37,229 nt of DNA from Candidatus Cloacimonadota bacterium (GTDB lineage: Bacteria; Cloacimonadota; Cloacimonadia; Cloacimonadales; JAFGVF01): positions 1 to 37,229 of the forward strand of contig JAEKNW010000284.1 of NCBI GenBank assembly GCA_016838885.1, in the 5' to 3' direction. The translations under genes were made by a program, and so were the position numbers. Under the pieces are notes generated by a model, which was not told the origin of the DNA, did not search any database, and saw nothing but the letters and a program-made list of their open reading frames with translations. Position 1 is the stretch's first letter. The number at the start of each line of letters is the position of its first letter. Shown here piece after piece: positions 1,769-28,439 of this stretch.

Positions 1769-1799
1769 GAGAGAAGATTTTCACCCTTCGTGAAAAGAA

Positions 1800-1989
1800 A
1801 TAGAGAGATGAAGAAGAGTTTCACCACAAAGGCACAAAAAACACAAAAAAAGAAGGAGAATCTATCCACGAATTACACGAATAAGAATATCCCTAACACA
1901 GAGTTACACAGAGGCCAAGAGGAGTTGCACAGAGTTTTAAGAGAGAAAAAGAATTTAGTCACCGAAAGCACCGGAAAACACGAATAAAA
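1800..1989. repeat. Non-coding tract of CACAGAG / ACCGAAA-type short repeats
   Basis: The tract is a string of related words: TTCACCACAAAGGCACAAA, ACACAGAGTTACACAGAGG, TTGCACAGAGTTTTAAGAGA, CACCGAAAGCACCGGAAAAC. The same words in the same order occur at 21172-21290. A 65-codon ORF runs through it, but its protein is low complexity and simply follows the repeats, so it is not called as a gene. Such words are seen in intergenic regions of many environmental FCB genomes; their function is unknown. Confidence 0.7.
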
Positions 1990-2373
1990 GCCTGTTCTGT
2001 CGGACGGTGGACATTTTGTCAGCCTCTTACCGACTAGAGAAGGTGATTTTCGCTGAAGCTAAACACAATCTTGAGCCCATGGTCGGAAGGCGGGCGTTCC
2101 CGCCCGCACCAAGCTTGTAGCTTGGTGAAATCTGGCGGCAAGATGCCCCCAGTCCATATCCCCTCACTTCAGCTAGCAGGAGATTGATAGCTGTGATACA
2201 TTCTGGCGACAGGTGGCATGGAGTGGAAGCACCCTTGCTTCCACAATCAAGCTTCCAAAGCTTGGTTATGATACAATATCCCCAAGGGGGATAAATAGTT
2301 TAGCCCAGGGTCCCATTCAACAAAGTTTTGAAAAAACGAAGTTGAATTGACCCTGGGTAAGGTTTCTCACCCA
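1990..2373. repeat. Hairpin-repeat array, first part (modules a and b)
   Basis: Module a (1990-2107) contains GTCGGACGGTGG, TTTTCGCTGAAGCTAA and a GCGGGCG/CGCCCGC hairpin, and recurs at 8954-9070 and inverted at about 29530-29610. Module b (from 2108) opens with ACCAAGCTT...AGCTTGGT and carries a perfect 8-bp hairpin GTGGAAGC/GCTTCCAC. Further hairpins follow: TATCCCC/GGGGATA near 2270-2292, and a long one at 2304-2357 (CCCAGGGTC with GACCCTGGG, ATTCAAC with GTTGAAT). No protein-coding signal was seen. Confidence 0.8.
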
Positions 2374-2600
2374 ATACCTAACCCTGAAGGGGTTAAATAG
2401 GATTTATATACTAGCAAAATTTCCTATCTAAAACATTGACATCATTATTAATTATGCATTATGAATTATCCATTATGAAGTATGAATTATGCATTAGAAG
2501 AATATATGTCGCCCCTGTAGGGCTCGTCTGTGGTTGGGATCTCGGAACAGTGTCTTGCGAACACTGCCTATTATATGGCATCCCTTTGGGATTTGAAGAA
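2374..2600. repeat. Hairpin-repeat module c, left copy
   Basis: This is nearly identical to 9075-9281, allowing for a ~25-bp insertion in this copy (the ATTATGAATTAT words). It contains successive short palindromes: ACCCTGAAGGGGTT, GCCCCTGTAGGGC, CAGTGT/ACACTG and ATCCCTTTGGGAT. A TTGACA near 2437 is carried in both copies. An ORF crossing this region (2436-2930) follows the repeats and is rejected as a gene. Confidence 0.85.
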
Positions 2601-2602
2601 TC

Positions 2603-2936
2603 ACCAAGCTTTTCAAAGCTTGGTGAAATCTGGCGGCAAGATGCCCCCAGTCCATATCCCCTCACTTCAGCTAGCAGGAGATTGACAGCTGGGTTAGATT
2701 CTGGCGACCAGTGGCATGGAGTGGAAGCACCCTTGCTTCCACAACCAAGCTTTTCAAAGCTTGGTGAAATCTGGCGGCAAGATGCCCCCATTCCATATCC
2801 CCTCGCTTCAGCTAGGTGGAGATTGACAGTTGGGATACATTCTGGCGACCAGTGGCATGGAGTGGAAGCGTCCCGCTTCCACAACCAAGCTTTATTAAGC
2901 TTGGTGAAATCAAATCCCTTCGGGATTTAATACTAA
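2603..2936. repeat. Tandem ~141-bp repeat with HindIII-type palindromes (module b)
   Basis: Units start at 2603, 2744 and 2884 (periods 141 and 140; the third is partial). Each begins with a palindrome, ACCAAGCTTT facing AAAGCTTGGT in the first two, followed by GTGAAATCTGGCGGCAAGAT and a GTGGAAGC/GCTTCCAC hairpin. Related units lie at 2108-2270, 9283-9590 and 29372-29530. Open frames on both strands across these units are repeat-driven. Confidence 0.88.
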
Positions 2937-3063
2937 CAAGCTTACAGCTTGGGGCGGAGAGAATCTCCACCGTCCGACAGAAGAGGCTTTGTTACCAATA
3001 AGCAATCATTATAAAATGTCAAGAAAACTTAAGATGGGCAATATAATAACTTTCCTTAAAGAT
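2937..3063. repeat. 127-bp repeat, inverted copy at 28081-28208
   Basis: Starting at CAAGCTTACAGCTTGG and ending at TTTCCTTAAAGAT, this segment matches the reverse complement of 28081-28208 with only a few differences and one length difference. A more diverged direct copy occurs around 21416-21480 (AAGAGGCAATATAACTAATA, AGCAAATATTTTAAAATTCA). 3064-3120 shows nothing beyond an AT-rich run. Confidence 0.85.
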
Positions 3064-3124
3064 AGTTAACTGGGAAAGGTGGCAGAGAGGCACATTCAAA
3101 TATTACAAAAAAAAATAAAAATCC

Positions 3125-3153
3125 TTGACAGCTTTTTCCTTCGAATCTAAATC
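3125..3153 (+). promoter_or_regulatory. Candidate promoter upstream of the CTCTT-repeat ORF
   Basis: TTGACA (3125-3130), a 17-nt spacer, then TAAATC (3148-3153). It lies 59 nt before the ATG at 3184, which has an excellent ribosome-binding site (AAGGAGAT). Promoter plus SD suggests this segment is expressed, unlike the repeat ORFs to its left. Confidence 0.5.
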
Positions 3154-3183
3154 TGCATTAGATGTAATGGAAGGAGATAAAAA

Positions 3184-3441
3184 ATGTGCAACTTTGTAGA
3201 AGGAAAGCTTGTATTTAATACATGTTTTAATAGTAACTACAGGGATTGCTTGCCCAAATTTAATAGTAACTCCTTATTAAATATTACAAACAATCTCTCT
3301 TCTCTTCTCTTCTCTTCTCTTCTCTTCTCTTCTCTTCTCTTCTCTTCTCTTCTCTTCTCTTATGTTTATTTACTATATACAATAAATTATATCAAATATT
3401 GTGTCGTTTCAAATTCATTACGAGACTGGTTAAACGAATGA
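3184..3441 (+). CDS. Possible small membrane peptide built on a CTCTT microsatellite
   Basis: 85-codon ORF with strong AAGGAGAT Shine-Dalgarno 5-6 nt before ATG and a TTGACA promoter candidate 59 nt upstream. Residues 1-37 are unremarkable. About 38-60 are (LLFSS)n, encoded by 13 exact CTCTT pentamers, and continue into a hydrophobic YVYLLYTINYI segment, so the product would be a single-span membrane peptide. No family is recognised. The pentamer count sets the reading frame: in the other two frames translation stops within about 8 codons or at about 3447. No frame can fuse with the gene at 3554, because an in-frame TAA lies at 3527-3529. It may be a leader ORF rather than a functional protein. 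Confidence 0.35.
   Translation: MCNFVEGKLVFNTCFNSNYRDCLPKFNSNSLLNITNNLSSLLFSSLLFSSLLFSSLLFSYVYLLYTINYIKYCVVSNSLRDWLNE
3297..3361 (+). repeat. CTCTT pentanucleotide microsatellite, 13 copies
   Basis: 65 nt of uninterrupted CTCTT. The unit length is not a multiple of three, so a gain or loss of one copy changes the reading frame of the surrounding ORF. CTCTT is also the unit of the phase-variable coding repeat of Neisseria opa genes, where it encodes the signal-peptide core; no homology is implied here. Confidence 0.97.
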
Positions 3442-3450
3442 TCGTTTAAC
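3429..3450. promoter_or_regulatory. Perfect 9-bp inverted repeat (hairpin or operator)
   Basis: GTTAAACGA (3429-3437), loop ATGA, TCGTTTAAC (3442-3450). It spans the end of the CTCTT ORF and sits about 100 nt before the beta-helix gene. No U-run follows, so an operator or RNA processing hairpin is as likely as a terminator. Confidence 0.5.
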
Positions 3451-3553
3451 TTATAAATTCCGATGAAAAGTAATGTATATTAATTATTCCAACACGTAAT
3501 GATTGAAATTAAGATATTTGATTTAATAACTTTTTAACATAAGGAAACTAAGA

Positions 3554-6274
3554 ATGAAAAAAATGATAATTATACTATTTAGTATAACCTTAGGTTATCT
3601 GTATTCAGATGATATATATCTAACAGTAAATGAACCAACAGCTCAATATAATGATAGTAACTTTAGAACTATCAGTGAGGCAGTACATCATGCTTCAGAA
3701 AATTACAATGATACTCTTTATACTGTAAAAATCCAAATATTTCAAAATCCAGAAATTAATAATGATCCGGTGTATGAAAATGGTGCTTATCGAGAAAATA
3801 TAATTACATCGGGTTTATGTGGATATGAGTTTTATTCTGGCGAACAAGAATCCATTATTATATATCCATTTGTACATATTAATCCCGTAATCTCCTTGAG
3901 AGGAGGAGGGAGTAATAATATGATAATAAGAGATATAAGATTTCATAACGATACTCAAAATTTCATTGAATATGGGGATAATGTTGCAATATACGTTAAA
4001 TCACCAAATGTCATAATCAAAAACTGTCAATTTATGACTGGTTTATATAGAAATCCATTTAATCATGATATAAAATTAGAACATGACAATGATTCTGAAG
4101 CTTACGAGAAAGCGCTATATGTAAATGATTGCCTATTTGATACAAGTATGGAAAGTTATATAAATGTTTCTCAGATTGGATTACCAAGAATTTTATGTAG
4201 TCTTATAGGTGATAAATATTATGAAACTACATATACTTTTTATGGGAGTAATAATCAATTTATTAGAACAGGACCAGCAGCGTATTCATCTGGAGCTAGG
4301 AATATTTACTGGAATAATAACTATAGTAAATTGGGTTACTGTAATCCACTTACAGCAACGTTTTTATTCACAAATTGTGATTATGGAAATGGAATAATAT
4401 GCAAGGATAATACTTCGGAGGTTGGTGGTTATGAAATTGTAACCTCTCCAAGGCGCGTCTCTTTTTTTGAAGGCAATATCTTTCATGGTTTCCGATTTGA
4501 TATAAATTATCCAACATCAGGTTTAGTAACAACTTCAAAATTCGTAAATAATGTAATTGTAACCTCTGAGGATGGAAGGTTTGTGAATTTTTTATTTACA
4601 ACCGTTCACCAGGATACAATAAGTAACAACAATTTTCTGAATGAGGTGAATCCTCAAGGCATTAGGCATCAAAACTTAACAATAGCAGGAGTAGCACAAA
4701 CACATAATAATATATTCTCAAACTATGAATTTGAACCGATACATTTTTTTTACCCATATCATATAGTCAGTAACATGTTCAATAATTGTTATAATTCTTA
4801 TGATCATGACCTAAATATAACTGGAGAACCGATATTCGAAGATATAAATGCACTAGATTTTTCACTAGTTTGGCCTTCGCCTGCTATCGGCAACGGATAT
4901 TCTGACGTATTCGATAGCCCTGAACCTGGTTTAGATATGAAACTATTAACCTATCAAGATGACACTATTGATATTGGGGCAATCCCCTTTAATGAGGATA
5001 GAAAACAATATCATCGCTTTGAAGGAGGAACTACAACCAAAAACTGGACAGGCTTTCCAGCCTTGGATCCAGAGAATGAAACTACCATCTTCTATGATGG
5101 TATAAACCAGACCCTGCCTAACAATAATATGATTGTGATGTTTCAGGACTTTACTGATTATCAAGGCAATTATGCATCAGTTGGTTATAAGGATTGGGAT
5201 GTTGATGATTATGTGGATTTTAGTTTTGTTTGGGGAAATTATACAACTCAACCTACGTTAGTTCAACCTTACCTGGGTTATAAAATAACTGCCCAGAATG
5301 ATATTGACCATTGGTTCGGAGGATTGTTGCAAGATCCAGATATGGATATTCCGCTTCCAGCAACACCAAATGAAATCTGGTTAGGTTATCATGTACCTTA
5401 CACAACAGATGTCTTAGTCGCTTTTAATGATATTTTGGGAAGCTTACAGACCATTAAGCATAAAGATTGGGCTATGTATTGGAATGGAACTAAGTGGACT
5501 GGGAAAACCACTACAGGTAATACTAATCTGGAATTAGGAGATTTTGTTGCAATAACATACCGCAGTAGTGCTGAACCCCCTTCTTCATTTAACTGGACAT
5601 ACTATTCTTATAGTAATCCAAATTCTTTCAAATACCAAGATGCTTCTTATGTAAGCTATGAAGAAAAGAATGATTATACTTCTTTCTTTGTTGATATTGA
5701 CGAAAATTCCAATATCGAAGAAATTGCTCTTTATGCCAACGATGAATGTATTGGTGGGGCTAAAACCCAAGGTGAAGCAACAGTAATGGTAAAAGCCTTT
5801 ATGGAAGATGTCCCCGAAGATAGCGAGATATCCATAATAGCTTTTACAGGTGCTAAAACGTCGAAAAAGGTTAAGCATCTAGCTGAGTATAATAGCAATT
5901 TGCAGGTATGGAATAATACAGATAACATCATCAAAGACAGTCGAATCTATTATCATGTCTCTTTGACTAAAGATAATACTTCTATCATCGAAACAAATCA
6001 GATTATTACTACAAACTACCCCAACCCCTTCAACCCTGAAACAACCATAGAATTTAATAATCCGGTTCAGGGTCAAGTTTCTGTTAATATCTATAACTTA
6101 AAAGGACAGCTTGTTAAATCGTTATTACAGGATAATCTCAATCAAGGTGTGCATAAGGTTATCTGGAGAGGAAATGACAGCAATGATCAGCAAGTAGCCA
6201 GTGGTGTCTATTTCTACAAAATCTCTTCTGGAAATAACAAGTCAGTAACTAAGAAAATAATCTTGATGAAATAG
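3554..6274 (+). CDS. Secreted right-handed beta-helix protein with FlgD-like/T9SS sorting domain
   Basis: 906-residue exported protein. The N-terminal signal peptide has a Lys-rich start and hydrophobic core, ending near YLYSDD (about 1-18). Residues about 25-440 are Asn-rich, with short repeated strands (ISEAVHHASENYND, IIRDIRFHND, VIIKNCQF) typical of parallel beta-helix surface proteins. About 460-680 is a Trp/Tyr-rich region with internal similarity (DWDVDDYVDF; DWAMYWNGTKWTG). Residues 821-906 form the FlgD-like C-terminal domain (NYPNPFNPETTIEF, GQVSVNIYNLKGQLV, SGVYFYKI, KKIILMK), used by FCB bacteria as a type IX secretion signal. The start is supported by AAGGA 8 nt upstream. The last ~260 bp are almost identical to the end of the next gene. 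Substrate or adhesive function cannot be read from sequence. Confidence 0.88.
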   Translation: MKKMIIILFSITLGYLYSDDIYLTVNEPTAQYNDSNFRTISEAVHHASENYNDTLYTVKIQIFQNPEINNDPVYENGAYRENIITSGLCGYEFYSGEQESIIIYPFVHINPVISLRGGGSNNMIIRDIRFHNDTQNFIEYGDNVAIYVKSPNVIIKNCQFMTGLYRNPFNHDIKLEHDNDSEAYEKALYVNDCLFDTSMESYINVSQIGLPRILCSLIGDKYYETTYTFYGSNNQFIRTGPAAYSSGARNIYWNNNYSKLGYCNPLTATFLFTNCDYGNGIICKDNTSEVGGYEIVTSPRRVSFFEGNIFHGFRFDINYPTSGLVTTSKFVNNVIVTSEDGRFVNFLFTTVHQDTISNNNFLNEVNPQGIRHQNLTIAGVAQTHNNIFSNYEFEPIHFFYPYHIVSNMFNNCYNSYDHDLNITGEPIFEDINALDFSLVWPSPAIGNGYSDVFDSPEPGLDMKLLTYQDDTIDIGAIPFNEDRKQYHRFEGGTTTKNWTGFPALDPENETTIFYDGINQTLPNNNMIVMFQDFTDYQGNYASVGYKDWDVDDYVDFSFVWGNYTTQPTLVQPYLGYKITAQNDIDHWFGGLLQDPDMDIPLPATPNEIWLGYHVPYTTDVLVAFNDILGSLQTIKHKDWAMYWNGTKWTGKTTTGNTNLELGDFVAITYRSSAEPPSSFNWTYYSYSNPNSFKYQDASYVSYEEKNDYTSFFVDIDENSNIEEIALYANDECIGGAKTQGEATVMVKAFMEDVPEDSEISIIAFTGAKTSKKVKHLAEYNSNLQVWNNTDNIIKDSRIYYHVSLTKDNTSIIETNQIITTNYPNPFNPETTIEFNNPVQGQVSVNIYNLKGQLVKSLLQDNLNQGVHKVIWRGNDSNDQQVASGVYFYKISSGNNKSVTKKIILMK

Positions 6275-6418: not shown

Positions 6419-8818
6419 ATGCACAAAATGCTCATACCCATATTAATGCTGATTTCTTTTAATCTGCATGCTTTGTTAGAGGTCTCTTTAGATGGAACAA
6501 AGCCTTATACAGAGATCCAATCAGCCGTTAACAGTGCTGAAGCAGGAGACACAGTCTTGGTATATCCCGGAACTTATTTTGAAAACATAGATTTGAGTAA
6601 TACTCAAAACCTTAGCCTAATATCACTGGAAGCAATTACTAATGATACTACTTATGTCTCTGCTACGATTATTAATGGTTCTCATAATCAAACTAGTGTA
6701 ATTATCTGTAATGGTAATAATACTAACTTCCTGGTACGCGGTATTACCATAACCGGAGGTTCAGGCTGGCAAGGTAACGTATTTTCACTTGGGGGGGGAG
6801 TCTTAGTTGTTTTTGGTAACATGACCTTGATGAATTCTATTGTTAAATATAACTCTGCTGATAGAGGGGGTGGGATAGCCATACTTCCAACAACGGGCAT
6901 TGCTCTTAGTGGAACTACTCTCCGCAATAATTTAGCTTATGATAACGGAGGAGGGTTAGGAATAGCCAGCAGTTATTATGAGCAACCGAGTATTATTTTT
7001 GATCAAGAAAACAGGTCTTCTATCTATGATAATTATGCCAGCTTAGGAAGTGACATCCATTGGTACAATCATAATGGAGGCAACTGCGAAGTATACTTAA
7101 AGAAATTTACTAATAGTGATTATGAGTTTTATTATGCCAGTTATTTTGATCCTAATGGAGGCTACTTAGATTTTGGTTATAATCCTTATTATGTTTTTGA
7201 TGTTGAGGAAGGAGTTCATGAGCAAGTAGATGCTGATTTATATGTATCAATGGATGGTAATGATAATAATAATGGTTTAACTCCTGAGCAAGCCTTACGC
7301 TCTACTTACAGAGCCTTTCAGATAATAAAGAGTAATCCTGATAACCAAAGGACTGTTCATTTACCGGCAGGGAATTACAGTAATTGTGCTAATGGCCATG
7401 AAAATTTACCCATCACTGTTAAGACTAATACTACTCTGCAAGGAGCATCGGCTGAAGAGACTATTATTGATGGGGAAAATATGAAAGTTGTCCAAATGGT
7501 TGGAATTATAAATGCCTCTATGACTGGAGAGAATATTACTATTAAGAACATGTCTTTACCAAACAGGACAGGATGTACCATTAGATCATCTGCAGTTATG
7601 AATCTAAAAATTGAAAATATATTAATAAATAACTGCACAAATATTGGAACTTGGGATAGAAATTTGCATTTAGGTAGTGTTGCTTATTCATCTGTAGAGA
7701 TGAAAAATGTTTTGATTCAGAATAGTGTTTCTGACCTCTTTGAAGCAGCAGGACGAGTTGAAGGTATTGATGTTACTTTGGACAATGTAGTTGTCAAAAA
7801 TAATACTAATACTAACACTATAGGTGGCGGGATAGTTGGGATATTAGAAGTTTATGCTAATAATCTCCTTAATGTGAATAAATGTCAATTTGTAAATAAT
7901 AATAGTGCTATCCAAACTTCTGGAGGGGCTCTAATTAGATTTTACGGAATGAGTGATAGCTTGGTGACCATTATTGATAATTCATTATTTGCAAATAATA
8001 GTAATGGTGATACTACAAGTAATTTTTATTTAAGTTCTGATAGATCAATTACCGTAAACAACTGTACTCTTTCCTATAATTCGGGAGGAGCTAGTAGCAC
8101 AATGGTACTGGGATCACATGGAGAAATTAACGTATATAACACGATTTTTGCTAATAATTCTCAATCTTATGCTATTAGGTACGGAAATACTTCTTTAAAC
8201 GTTGATAATTCTCTATTTAGTAATAGCATAAATAATATCTCATTTACATATGGCAACTATCCTTCTTATCTTGGAGATAACAATCTCTATGAAAGGGATC
8301 CTCTTTTTGTAGGAGGAGACCCTGCAATATATTCTTATTATCAGCTATCAGGAGATGAAGTTAATGGCTACTCACCTGCAATCAATGCCGGTACTGAAGA
8401 CTTTTCATTTATGCCGGATTGGTACGAAATAAGCCAGCTTGATTTATGGGGAAATCCCAGAATATTTGGAGATAGAGTTGATATGGGTTGTTATGAGTAT
8501 CAAGGTTATACAGGTAATCATGATAGCGAAATTGCTTTGAATAATTTAACAGCTACCAACTACCCCAACCCCTTCAACCCTGAAACAACCATAGAATTTA
8601 ATAATCCGGTTCAGGGTCAAGTTTCTGTCAATATCTATAACTTAAAAGGACAGCTTGTTAAATCATTACTAAAAGATAATCTCAATCAAGGCGTTCATAA
8701 GGTTATATGGAGAGGAAATGACAGCAATGATAAGCAAGTATCCAGTGGTGTCTATTTCTACAAAATCTCTTCTGGAAATAACAAGTCGGTAACTAAGAAA
8801 ATAATCTTGATGAAATAG
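6419..8818 (+). CDS. Secreted beta-helix protein (DUF1565-like) with FlgD-like/T9SS sorting domain
   Basis: 799-residue exported protein. The signal peptide is about 1-18 (ends FNLHA). The first beta-helix block starts at SLDGTKPYTEIQSAVNSAEA, then DTVLVYPGTYFENI and GITITGGSG. A second block begins around 275 (LYVSMDGNDNNNGLTPEQAL, HLPAGNYS, TTLQGASAEETIIDGENM), a DUF1565/pectate-lyase-like pattern. Near 650-690 is the PAINAGTEDFSF ... GNPRIFGDRVDMGCYEYQG segment common just before the tail of such proteins. The sorting domain is 714-799. It has its own AAAGGA ribosome-binding site. It follows the first beta-helix gene after 144 nt, and the two share their 3' end at DNA level, extending past the stop codon. 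It is likely surface-bound or secreted; the ligand is unknown. Confidence 0.88.
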   Translation: MHKMLIPILMLISFNLHALLEVSLDGTKPYTEIQSAVNSAEAGDTVLVYPGTYFENIDLSNTQNLSLISLEAITNDTTYVSATIINGSHNQTSVIICNGNNTNFLVRGITITGGSGWQGNVFSLGGGVLVVFGNMTLMNSIVKYNSADRGGGIAILPTTGIALSGTTLRNNLAYDNGGGLGIASSYYEQPSIIFDQENRSSIYDNYASLGSDIHWYNHNGGNCEVYLKKFTNSDYEFYYASYFDPNGGYLDFGYNPYYVFDVEEGVHEQVDADLYVSMDGNDNNNGLTPEQALRSTYRAFQIIKSNPDNQRTVHLPAGNYSNCANGHENLPITVKTNTTLQGASAEETIIDGENMKVVQMVGIINASMTGENITIKNMSLPNRTGCTIRSSAVMNLKIENILINNCTNIGTWDRNLHLGSVAYSSVEMKNVLIQNSVSDLFEAAGRVEGIDVTLDNVVVKNNTNTNTIGGGIVGILEVYANNLLNVNKCQFVNNNSAIQTSGGALIRFYGMSDSLVTIIDNSLFANNSNGDTTSNFYLSSDRSITVNNCTLSYNSGGASSTMVLGSHGEINVYNTIFANNSQSYAIRYGNTSLNVDNSLFSNSINNISFTYGNYPSYLGDNNLYERDPLFVGGDPAIYSYYQLSGDEVNGYSPAINAGTEDFSFMPDWYEISQLDLWGNPRIFGDRVDMGCYEYQGYTGNHDSEIALNNLTATNYPNPFNPETTIEFNNPVQGQVSVNIYNLKGQLVKSLLKDNLNQGVHKVIWRGNDSNDKQVSSGVYFYKISSGNNKSVTKKIILMK

Positions 8819-9074
8819 TATCTTGCTACACAAGAGTGATAAAAGGTAAGATAAGATAAGAAGTTATTTAACACAATGAACAAGAATGTAGTGCAAAATA
8901 TCTTTTGCTAAAAAGGATTTATTTGCCGAAAACACAGGAAAATACATATATAAGCCTCTTCTGTCGGTCGGTGGACATTTTGTCCGCCAAGCACCGACTA
9001 GAGAATGTGATTTTCGCTGAAGCTAACCACAATCTTGAGCTCATGGTCGGACGGCGGACGTTCACGCCACATAA
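8819..9074. repeat. Hairpin-repeat array after the beta-helix pair (module a copy)
   Basis: 8819-8860 repeats the 3' flank of the first beta-helix gene (TAGTATCTTGCTA, AAGAGTGATAAA). Module a (8954-9070) matches 1990-2105 with scattered substitutions and no coding pressure visible. 8900-8950 has a short CCGAAAACACAGGAAAA word of the CACAGAG-type family. Confidence 0.75.
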
Positions 9075-9387
9075 ATACCTAACCCTGAAGGGGTTAAATA
9101 GGATTTATTTACTAGCAAAATTTCCTATCTAAAACATTGACATCATTATTAATTATGCATTATGAATTATGCATTAGAAGAATATATGTCGCCCCTGTAG
9201 GGCTCATCTGTGGTTGTGATCTCGGTACAGTGTCTTGCGAACACTGCCTATTATATGGCATCCCTTTGGGATTTGAAGAATAACCAAGCTTTTAAAAGCT
9301 TGGTGAAATCTGGCGGCAAGATGCCCCCAGTCCATATCCCCTCACTTCAGCTAGCAAAAGATTGAAAGTTGGGTTACATTCTGGCGA
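9075..9387. repeat. Hairpin-repeat module c plus b, right copy
   Basis: 9075-9281 is a near-identical direct repeat of 2374-2600, including the TTGACATCATTATTAATTAT stretch and the same run of short palindromes. 9283-9304 is the ACCAAGCTTT/AAAGCTTGGT palindrome beginning a further module b. Confidence 0.85.
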
Positions 9388-9593
9388 CAGGTGGTATGGA
9401 GTGGGAGCACCCTTGCTTCCACAACCAAGCTTTTCAAGCTTGGTGCGGCCAGGGGTGGCCGCGGTCCGACAGAAGAGGTCTACATCCTAGCAACAGGTGG
9501 TATGGAGTGGAAGCACCCTTGCTTCCACAACCAAGCTTTTCCAGCTTGGTGCGGCGAGGGGTGGCCGCGGCCCGACAGAAGAGGTCTACATCT
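9388..9593. repeat. Tandem 106-bp duplication (GTGGAAGC hairpin plus GC-rich palindrome)
   Basis: Two units start at CAGGTGGTATGG (9388 and 9494; period 106). Each holds the GTGGAAGC/GCTTCCAC-type hairpin, an AAGCTT palindrome, and a GC-rich palindromic segment (GGCCAGGGGTGGCCGCGG) ending CCGACAGAAGAGGTCTACAT. Several overlapping frames stay open across it, but their products are repeat translations. Confidence 0.88.
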
Positions 9594-9627: not shown

Positions 9628-9723
9628 CTCAACAACTCAACAACTCAACAACTCAACAACTCAACAACTCAACAACTCAACAACTCAACAACTCAACAAC
9701 TCAACAACTCAACAACTCAACAA
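9628..9723. repeat. CTCAACAA octanucleotide microsatellite, 12 copies
   Basis: 96 nt of exact CTCAACAA units, about 140 nt upstream of the cold-shock gene. All three forward frames stay open through it (QLNNSTTQ repeats) because the translated pattern repeats every 24 nt. A degenerate complementary tract (TTGTTGAACTGTTGAATTG) occurs at about 21309-21330. Confidence 0.96.
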
Positions 9724-9861: not shown

Positions 9862-10074
9862 ATGAAAGGTACAGTGAAATGGTTCAATGAGAATAAGGGG
9901 TATGGATTTATACTTTCTGATGAAAATGTCGAGTATTTCGTCCATTGGAAGAGTATAGTTACGCCTAATCCTATGCAACAGAAGATTCTTATTCAGGATG
10001 AGAGAGTAGAATTTGATACAATAGAGACTCCAAGGGGAACCCAAGCAATTAACATAATTAGAGTTGATGTATAA
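9862..10074 (+). CDS. Cold-shock domain protein (CspA family)
   Basis: 70-residue single-domain nucleic-acid chaperone. MKGTVKWFNENKGYGFI is the classic opening, with RNP1 as KGYGFI (12-17). RNP2 is YFVHWKSI (25-32), with Tyr and Trp replacing the usual Val and Phe of VFVHFSAI; the aromatic face is kept. Length equals canonical CspA. AGAGG lies 6 nt before the ATG. The radical SAM gene follows after 45 nt and may be cotranscribed. It probably binds single-stranded RNA and counters secondary structure. Confidence 0.93.
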   Translation: MKGTVKWFNENKGYGFILSDENVEYFVHWKSIVTPNPMQQKILIQDERVEFDTIETPRGTQAINIIRVDV

Positions 10075-27869: not shown

Positions 27870-28080
27870 TGTCTCTCCTTCTCTCAAATAGAATCATCAA
27901 TCTTTGCTAAAAACAGCTCGAAATCTCCAGATGTACATGGAACAAGACATGTCTTTAAATTTCTCATATATGTGAAATTAAAATAATAATAGTTGATTTA
28001 TGAGTCAAGTAAAAAAATGGTTAATTTTTTGTTCAATTATTGGAGACTGTTCAACAATCAAGGCACCCTCTCAATAGCTT
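27870..28080. other. AT-rich upstream region of the DUF3795 gene
   Basis: Minus-strand TTGACT (28008-28003) with TATTTT 17 nt downstream is a candidate promoter about 135 nt from the DUF3795 start. 28040-28080 shows no gene or clear structure. Confidence 0.4.
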
Positions 28081-28208
28081 ATCCTTAAGGAAAGTTATTA
28101 TATTGCCCATCTTAAGGTTTTCTTGACATTTTATAGTGATTGTTTATTGGTAACGAAGCATCTTCTGTCGGACGGTGGAGATTCTCTCCGCCCCAAGCTG
28201 TAAGCTTG
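28081..28208. repeat. 128-bp repeat, inverted copy of 2937-3063
   Basis: The reverse complement matches 2937-3063 with only a few substitutions and one extra base. The block includes GTCGGACGGTGG, GGAGATTCTCTCC and CCAAGCTGTAAGCTTG. 28209-28300 continues with shared words (ATCCCGAAGGGAT, AGTGTTCCAAGACACT, CCCAAATAATTCAGTAGA). Confidence 0.85.
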
Positions 28209-28301
28209 TTTCTATTAAATCCCGAAGGGATGAAAATATAATAGGCAGTGTTCCAAGACACTGTTAATCCCAAATAATTCAGTAGATCTTTGAGAATAGT
28301 A

Positions 28302-28439
28302 CTCTGGGATTGCGGGCTTCCAGCCCGTATTAGAAACCGGTAACTCGTTGCCGGTTCTTATCATCTTGCTGTTAGCAAGATAGATAATTTCTCCCCTTTA
28401 GGAGAAATGAATACGGGCTGGAAGCCCGCAATCCCAGAG
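28302..28439. repeat. Cloverleaf-like inverted repeat: 30-bp stem enclosing three hairpins
   Basis: 28302-28331 is the perfect reverse complement of 28410-28439 (30 bp). The 78-nt interior holds AACCGG/CCGGTT (28335-28356), ATCTTGCT-gtt-AGCAAGAT (28363-28381) and ATTTCTCC/GGAGAAAT (28387-28408). No protein is plausible. The GC content of the arms is far above the surrounding sequence. Confidence 0.9.

Follow-up and report, generated by a model that had tools for sequence, protein, structure and literature searches.

A CTCTT pentamer array in a putative leader reading frame 5' of a gene for a T9SS surface protein in an uncultured member of the Cloacimonadales

Introduction

In S. gallolyticus, the leader ORF of the pil1 pilus locus carries 22 GCAGA repeats, with which the stop falls 39 bp short of a terminator hairpin and expression is low, whereas one copy more or fewer moves the stop into or past the hairpin and expression is high (PMC3894217). 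Expression was lower after removal of the leader start and was locked high after deletion of the terminator stem, and the terminator failed without its 6 T (PMC3894217). Our search of the open literature found repeat-slippage leader-peptide switching detailed for this one streptococcal pilus only. Two further systems are of relevance here. In Neisseria opa, CTCTT repeats lie in the signal-peptide coding region and encode hydrophobic residues (PMC3745409), and the genomes of marine Beggiatoaceae contain abundant intergenic tandem heptamers, for example, TAACTGA (PMC4679880).

Here, we describe a locus in a stretch of 37,229 nucleotides from Candidatus Cloacimonadota (contig JAEKNW010000284.1), referred to below as the window. 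The locus resembles pil1 in placing a frame-shifting pentamer array inside a leader ORF that has a Shine-Dalgarno (SD) site and an ATG and lies 5' of a gene for a surface protein. Likewise, one of its frames closes some 40 nt 5' of a hairpin (at 3385) and the other two close within or beyond it (3441 and 3449). It differs from pil1 in repeat unit, phylum, and target, in a hairpin that lacks the 6-T run, and in being known from sequence alone. With Neisseria opa, it shares the CTCTT unit in many copies (13 here), the hydrophobic LFSSL coding, and the neighborhood of a surface protein; however, the repeat in the window lies outside the surface-protein coding frame and no frame joins the two. The genome is reminiscent of Beggiatoaceae in that it is also rich in perfect arrays between genes, most of them with units of 7 or 8 nt, but it uses several different units, and the CTCTT array differs from the other arrays of the genome by its location inside an ORF with an SD site, downstream of a promoter box.

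Results

The features of the locus, with the basis for each in parentheses, are as follows.

3125 to 3130, plus strand: TTGACA promoter box (-35), with an A-rich tract before it (strand enrichment)
3171 to 3177, plus strand: AAGGAGA SD site of the leader ORF, with the ATG at 3184 (census of AAGGAGA-n4-9-ATG)
3184 to 3441, plus strand: putative leader ORF, which at 13 copies encodes 85 aa and ends with a TGA (3439-3441) in the loop of the hairpin (start signals; codon use not gene-like)
3297 to 3361, plus strand: (CTCTT)13 array of a frame-shifting unit (exact count and TRF)
3383 to 3385, plus strand: TAA, leader stop at 11, 14, and 17 copies, 43 nt 5' of the hairpin (exit-frame computation)
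3429 to 3450, plus strand: 9-bp perfect hairpin or inverted repeat with a 4-nt loop (-10 kcal/mol)
3447 to 3449, plus strand: TAA, leader stop at 9, 12, and 15 copies, within the hairpin's 3' arm (exit-frame computation)
3554 to 6274, plus strand: 906-aa secreted protein with a T9SS type A sorting domain and its own SD site, AAGGA, at 3541-3545; presumed target (profile matches)
6419 to 8818, plus strand: second T9SS-sorted protein, in the same direction as the 3554 gene (PF18962, 43.5 bits)

A sequence-only reading of this DNA had described a TTGACA promoter candidate, a strong SD site, and an ATG that lead into an expressed-looking ORF with a hydrophobic core encoded by 13 exact CTCTT units. 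Each of these elements was located, the array lies within the ORF, and the (LLFSS)n stretch is present in the 85-aa translation. Because CTCTT is free of stops in all frames, an open frame through the array is by itself no evidence of a gene. The view that the ORF looks expressed is supported by the box, the spacing, and the SD site taken together. Upstream of genes in the window's genome, TTGACA is found 149 times compared to 66 times on the other strand, with a peak at 50 to 74 nt before start codons (67 versus 13). The box at 3125 lies 59 nt from the leader ATG and 429 nt from the 3554 gene. The sequence AAGGAGA followed by ATG at a distance of 4 to 9 nt occurs at 45 called gene starts and at four positions in uncalled intergenic DNA, including that of the leader ORF. 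When TTGACA is placed 45 to 80 nt 5' of an AAGGAG-led ATG, 17 cases are found in 1.23 Mb, of which 16 are called gene starts and the 17th is the leader ORF. Over the whole genome, this composite is matched 37 times, compared to a single match when the pattern is reversed, and of 30 sites inspected, 28 open a reading frame of at least 85 aa. Since this composite signal marks gene starts almost exclusively in this genome, the leader ORF is very probably real and translated, starting at what is most likely a genuine site of transcription and translation initiation. A generic sigma-70 scan did not call the box at 3125, owing to a poor -10 region, but this says little because TATAAT shows no strand enrichment upstream of genes in this genome (158 versus 163). 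The coding score of the N-terminal part of the leader ORF falls under the 1st percentile for coding windows; codon use as poor as this would be in keeping with a leader peptide. Elsewhere, the composite signal opens only 15 codons at one locus (L313; G000 C23:15519-15588), a candidate short leader peptide.

The array consists of 13 exact CTCTT units (TRF: 3296-3361, 100% matches), and a perfect pentamer array of 65 bp is far beyond chance. No second CTCTT array of at least 4 copies exists anywhere in the 3.34-Mb genome. We consider it likely that the copy number varies in the population. As the earlier reading had it, slippage by one unit shifts the frame: 13 copies place the leader stop at 3441 in the loop of the hairpin, 12 copies at 3449 in the 3' arm, and 14 copies at 3385, a pattern that recurs every three copies. 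Its further points, that the frame ends before the downstream gene and that a 9-bp hairpin follows at 3429, also held, the former for all three exit frames, which close 5' of 3554.

The hairpin (GTTAAACGA-ATGA-TCGTTTAAC, with 3 G-C pairs of 9) is unique in the genome, allowing up to 3 mismatches. Its tail, TTATAAAT, has no T-run, with T at 4 of the 8 bases that follow the hairpin; 4-T tails are found at 15 of 65 gene-3'-end hairpins in this genome, most of which have at least 5. A terminator scan did not call the hairpin, and no Rfam element was matched in the window. Transcription termination at this site is possible but not indicated, and pausing, RNA decay, or Rho are alternatives to intrinsic termination. 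The RNA of the array contains C and no G, which would suit Rho. When 3362-3553 was shuffled with its dinucleotides preserved, 3.0% of the shuffles had a 9-bp hairpin and 0.4% had one together with such exits. Among 223 real 5' regions of the genome, 2 show the hairpin-plus-exit geometry, and the window's own may be one of them. All of these figures were obtained after the fact and are no more than suggestive.

The 3554 protein is identified as T9SS type A cargo by a C-terminal sorting domain that scores above the curated cut-offs (PF18962, 39.4 versus 27 bits; TIGR04183, 42.4 versus 23 bits). The beta-helix fold ascribed to it earlier was not recovered in Pfam, where no beta-helix family matched; a PDB sequence search gave no match, and a single-sequence structure model (mean pLDDT, 30.5) is too poor to judge the fold. 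The protein has 83 matches in the window's genome, nearly all within the sorting domain. Relatives cover it partly, with approximately 25 to 34% identity over long stretches. No orthologous locus was found in a GTDB scan with the 3554 protein, among 58 relatives, or in a comparison of the leader protein and DNA with 107 genomes of the order, in which the DNA gave only short A-rich promoter-like matches. The C-terminal domains of the 3554 and 6419 proteins are 75% identical, closer than any other of the 83 genome matches, which suggests that the sorting domain recently underwent duplication or gene conversion.

Discussion

The layout and the genome-typical start signals are plain in the DNA, and from these we infer transcription, translation, slippage, an action of the hairpin, and an effect on the 3554 gene. 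In the proposed mechanism, the leader ORF that contains the array and precedes the T9SS surface-protein gene would be transcribed and translated, and polymerase slippage would add or remove a CTCTT unit, changing the frame and thereby the position at which the leader ribosome stops. In two of the three frames, the ribosome would stop inside the hairpin and keep it open, while in the third frame it would stop 43 nt upstream and the hairpin would form. As with pil1 in S. gallolyticus, the result would be stochastic switching of downstream gene output. The earlier proposal that any switching would act through the leader or the hairpin fits the exit geometry and the pil1 precedent (PMC3894217). 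In our judgment, an influence of the leader frame on the 3554 gene is plausible, if somewhat short of probable. The full reading, an independently evolved switch of the pil1 kind that works through a hairpin without a T-run (via RNA stability, pausing, or Rho) and stochastically controls a T9SS surface protein in an uncultured Cloacimonadales bacterium, is tentative and, taken as a whole, rather doubtful. If true, it would represent a second, unrelated leader-peptide switch, in an uncultured T9SS lineage, and would suggest that the design evolves easily; such a leader design would escape scans that are limited to repeats in large genes or core promoters. The key prediction of the switch is the presence of mixed CTCTT copy numbers.

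The main rival is a neutral microsatellite, that is, an array that grew by chance in a short transcribed ORF and leaves the neighboring gene unaffected; we regard this as a serious possibility that still falls below an even chance. Array clusters are indeed frequent in this genome. In the 1.23 of 3.34 Mb surveyed, 39 were found, 36 of which lie outside called genes, with the genes in all orientations, including convergent, and T9SS genes are not clearly enriched among genes with an array 5' (2 of 30, versus 41 of 902 genes). In addition, the DNA upstream of the locus is a dispersed-repeat mosaic to about 3083, and the codon use of the leader is not gene-like. Yet, CTCTT is the only pentamer among the arrays surveyed and, of 29 arrays checked on both strands, the only one entered by an ATG ORF with a strong SD site. 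On this account, moreover, both the start signals and the exit geometry would have to be coincidence. Several other 5' arrays have a TTGAC box between the array and the gene, 52 to 69 nt from the start codon. No such box exists between the CTCTT array and 3554, which is weak evidence, as many genes are without a TTGAC box.

Alternatively, the ORF might encode a small membrane peptide in which the repeat forms the hydrophobic segment and slippage alters the tail, with no effect on the downstream gene. The hydrophobic LLFSS stretch and the good start signals of the ORF would be in keeping with this, but the leader protein matched no Pfam or NCBIfam family and had no convincing homologue in the 107 genomes of the order, the sole match being 39% identical at an E value of 0.02. 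Together with the low coding score, this makes a peptide function improbable. It is still less probable that the array acts in the 5' untranslated region by altering spacing or RNA structure or stability, with translation of the leader being irrelevant: with a transcription start near 3160, a long 5' leader would contain the array, but given the strong SD site and ATG the leader should be translated. Finally, a switch of the Opa type, in which the repeat controls whether the surface protein itself is read in frame, is scarcely credible despite the unit and hydrophobic coding shared with opa (PMC3745409), since none of the exits at 3385, 3441, or 3449 reaches 3554, and the fusion, ruled out on the sequence as assembled, could be revived only by an assembly error in 3362-3553.

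The tandem arrays elsewhere in the genome merit some description. Dispersed-repeat mosaics, found in 10 to 50 copies in the 1.23 Mb sampled, occupy window positions 1793-3083, 8939-9590, and 28028-28320 and fill most of the intergenic space that holds or adjoins tandem arrays. An exact (CTCAACAA)12 array is found in the window at 9628-9723, past the T9SS genes and before a cold-shock-like gene at 9862. This array is probably outside the transcript, as judged by a TTGAC box between it and the 9862 gene, at 58 nt. The heptamer AACTCTT forms long perfect arrays at no fewer than five separate loci (among L077, L139, L148, and the G000 contig starts C21, C28, and C220), and the octamer CTCTATCT does so at several loci. 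In three contigs, an 8-nt array takes up exactly the first 99 bp, probably because the assembly was interrupted at longer arrays.

Stretches with CTCTT arrays of at least 8 copies number at least 118 and come from many phyla, and CTCTT was therefore rejected as a hallmark of Opa. Hence, the comparison with Opa made in the sequence-only reading stands for the repeat unit and the hydrophobic coding, but not for fusion to the surface protein or for specificity of the unit. When 120 CTCTT arrays were examined, 34 abutted a frame open for at least 150 codons with a start codon close upstream, 54 had no such frame, and 32 were too near an edge to tell. The open-frame class includes Neisseria opa loci, Endomicrobiellum signal peptides, and probable Treponema lipoproteins. 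The window's array falls in the class without a long open frame, where its start signals set it apart from most others. The sole other CTCTT array of at least 7 copies in the order (G040, L291; 8 copies) has an unrelated setting; G040 contains the DNA of L265, which is Candidatus Tenebribacter davisii (Cloacimonadales, Candidatus Cloacimonadota in the NCBI taxonomy). The window's genome is listed under the order of G040 and so very probably belongs to Cloacimonadales as well.

Among the arrays in other organisms, at least four Opa-like loci (L190, L216, L223, and L256) with the same SD site and ATG occur in Candidatus Endomicrobiellum incisitermitis from the termite gut. In these, (CTCTT)12-21 follows MxKTLTTSFKKA, and one frame runs into the end of a signal peptide and, if the contig extends far enough, into a long frame. 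From their sequences, they look like a family of phase-variable surface proteins; a literature search found no paper on the CTCTT loci of Endomicrobiellum. Five CTCTT arrays (L226, L251, L191, L199, and L234) are present in one uncultured Treponema MAG, CAMJZA01. In L226 and L251, lipobox-like ends (SSCTG and ASCTG) follow the array, and the products are probable phase-variable lipoproteins; the other arrays are at contig ends. In a 210-kb viral contig from IMG/VR (L288), 16 CTCTT copies, for which no clear upstream start codon was found, stand directly before a 330-codon open frame that looks phosphoesterase-like.
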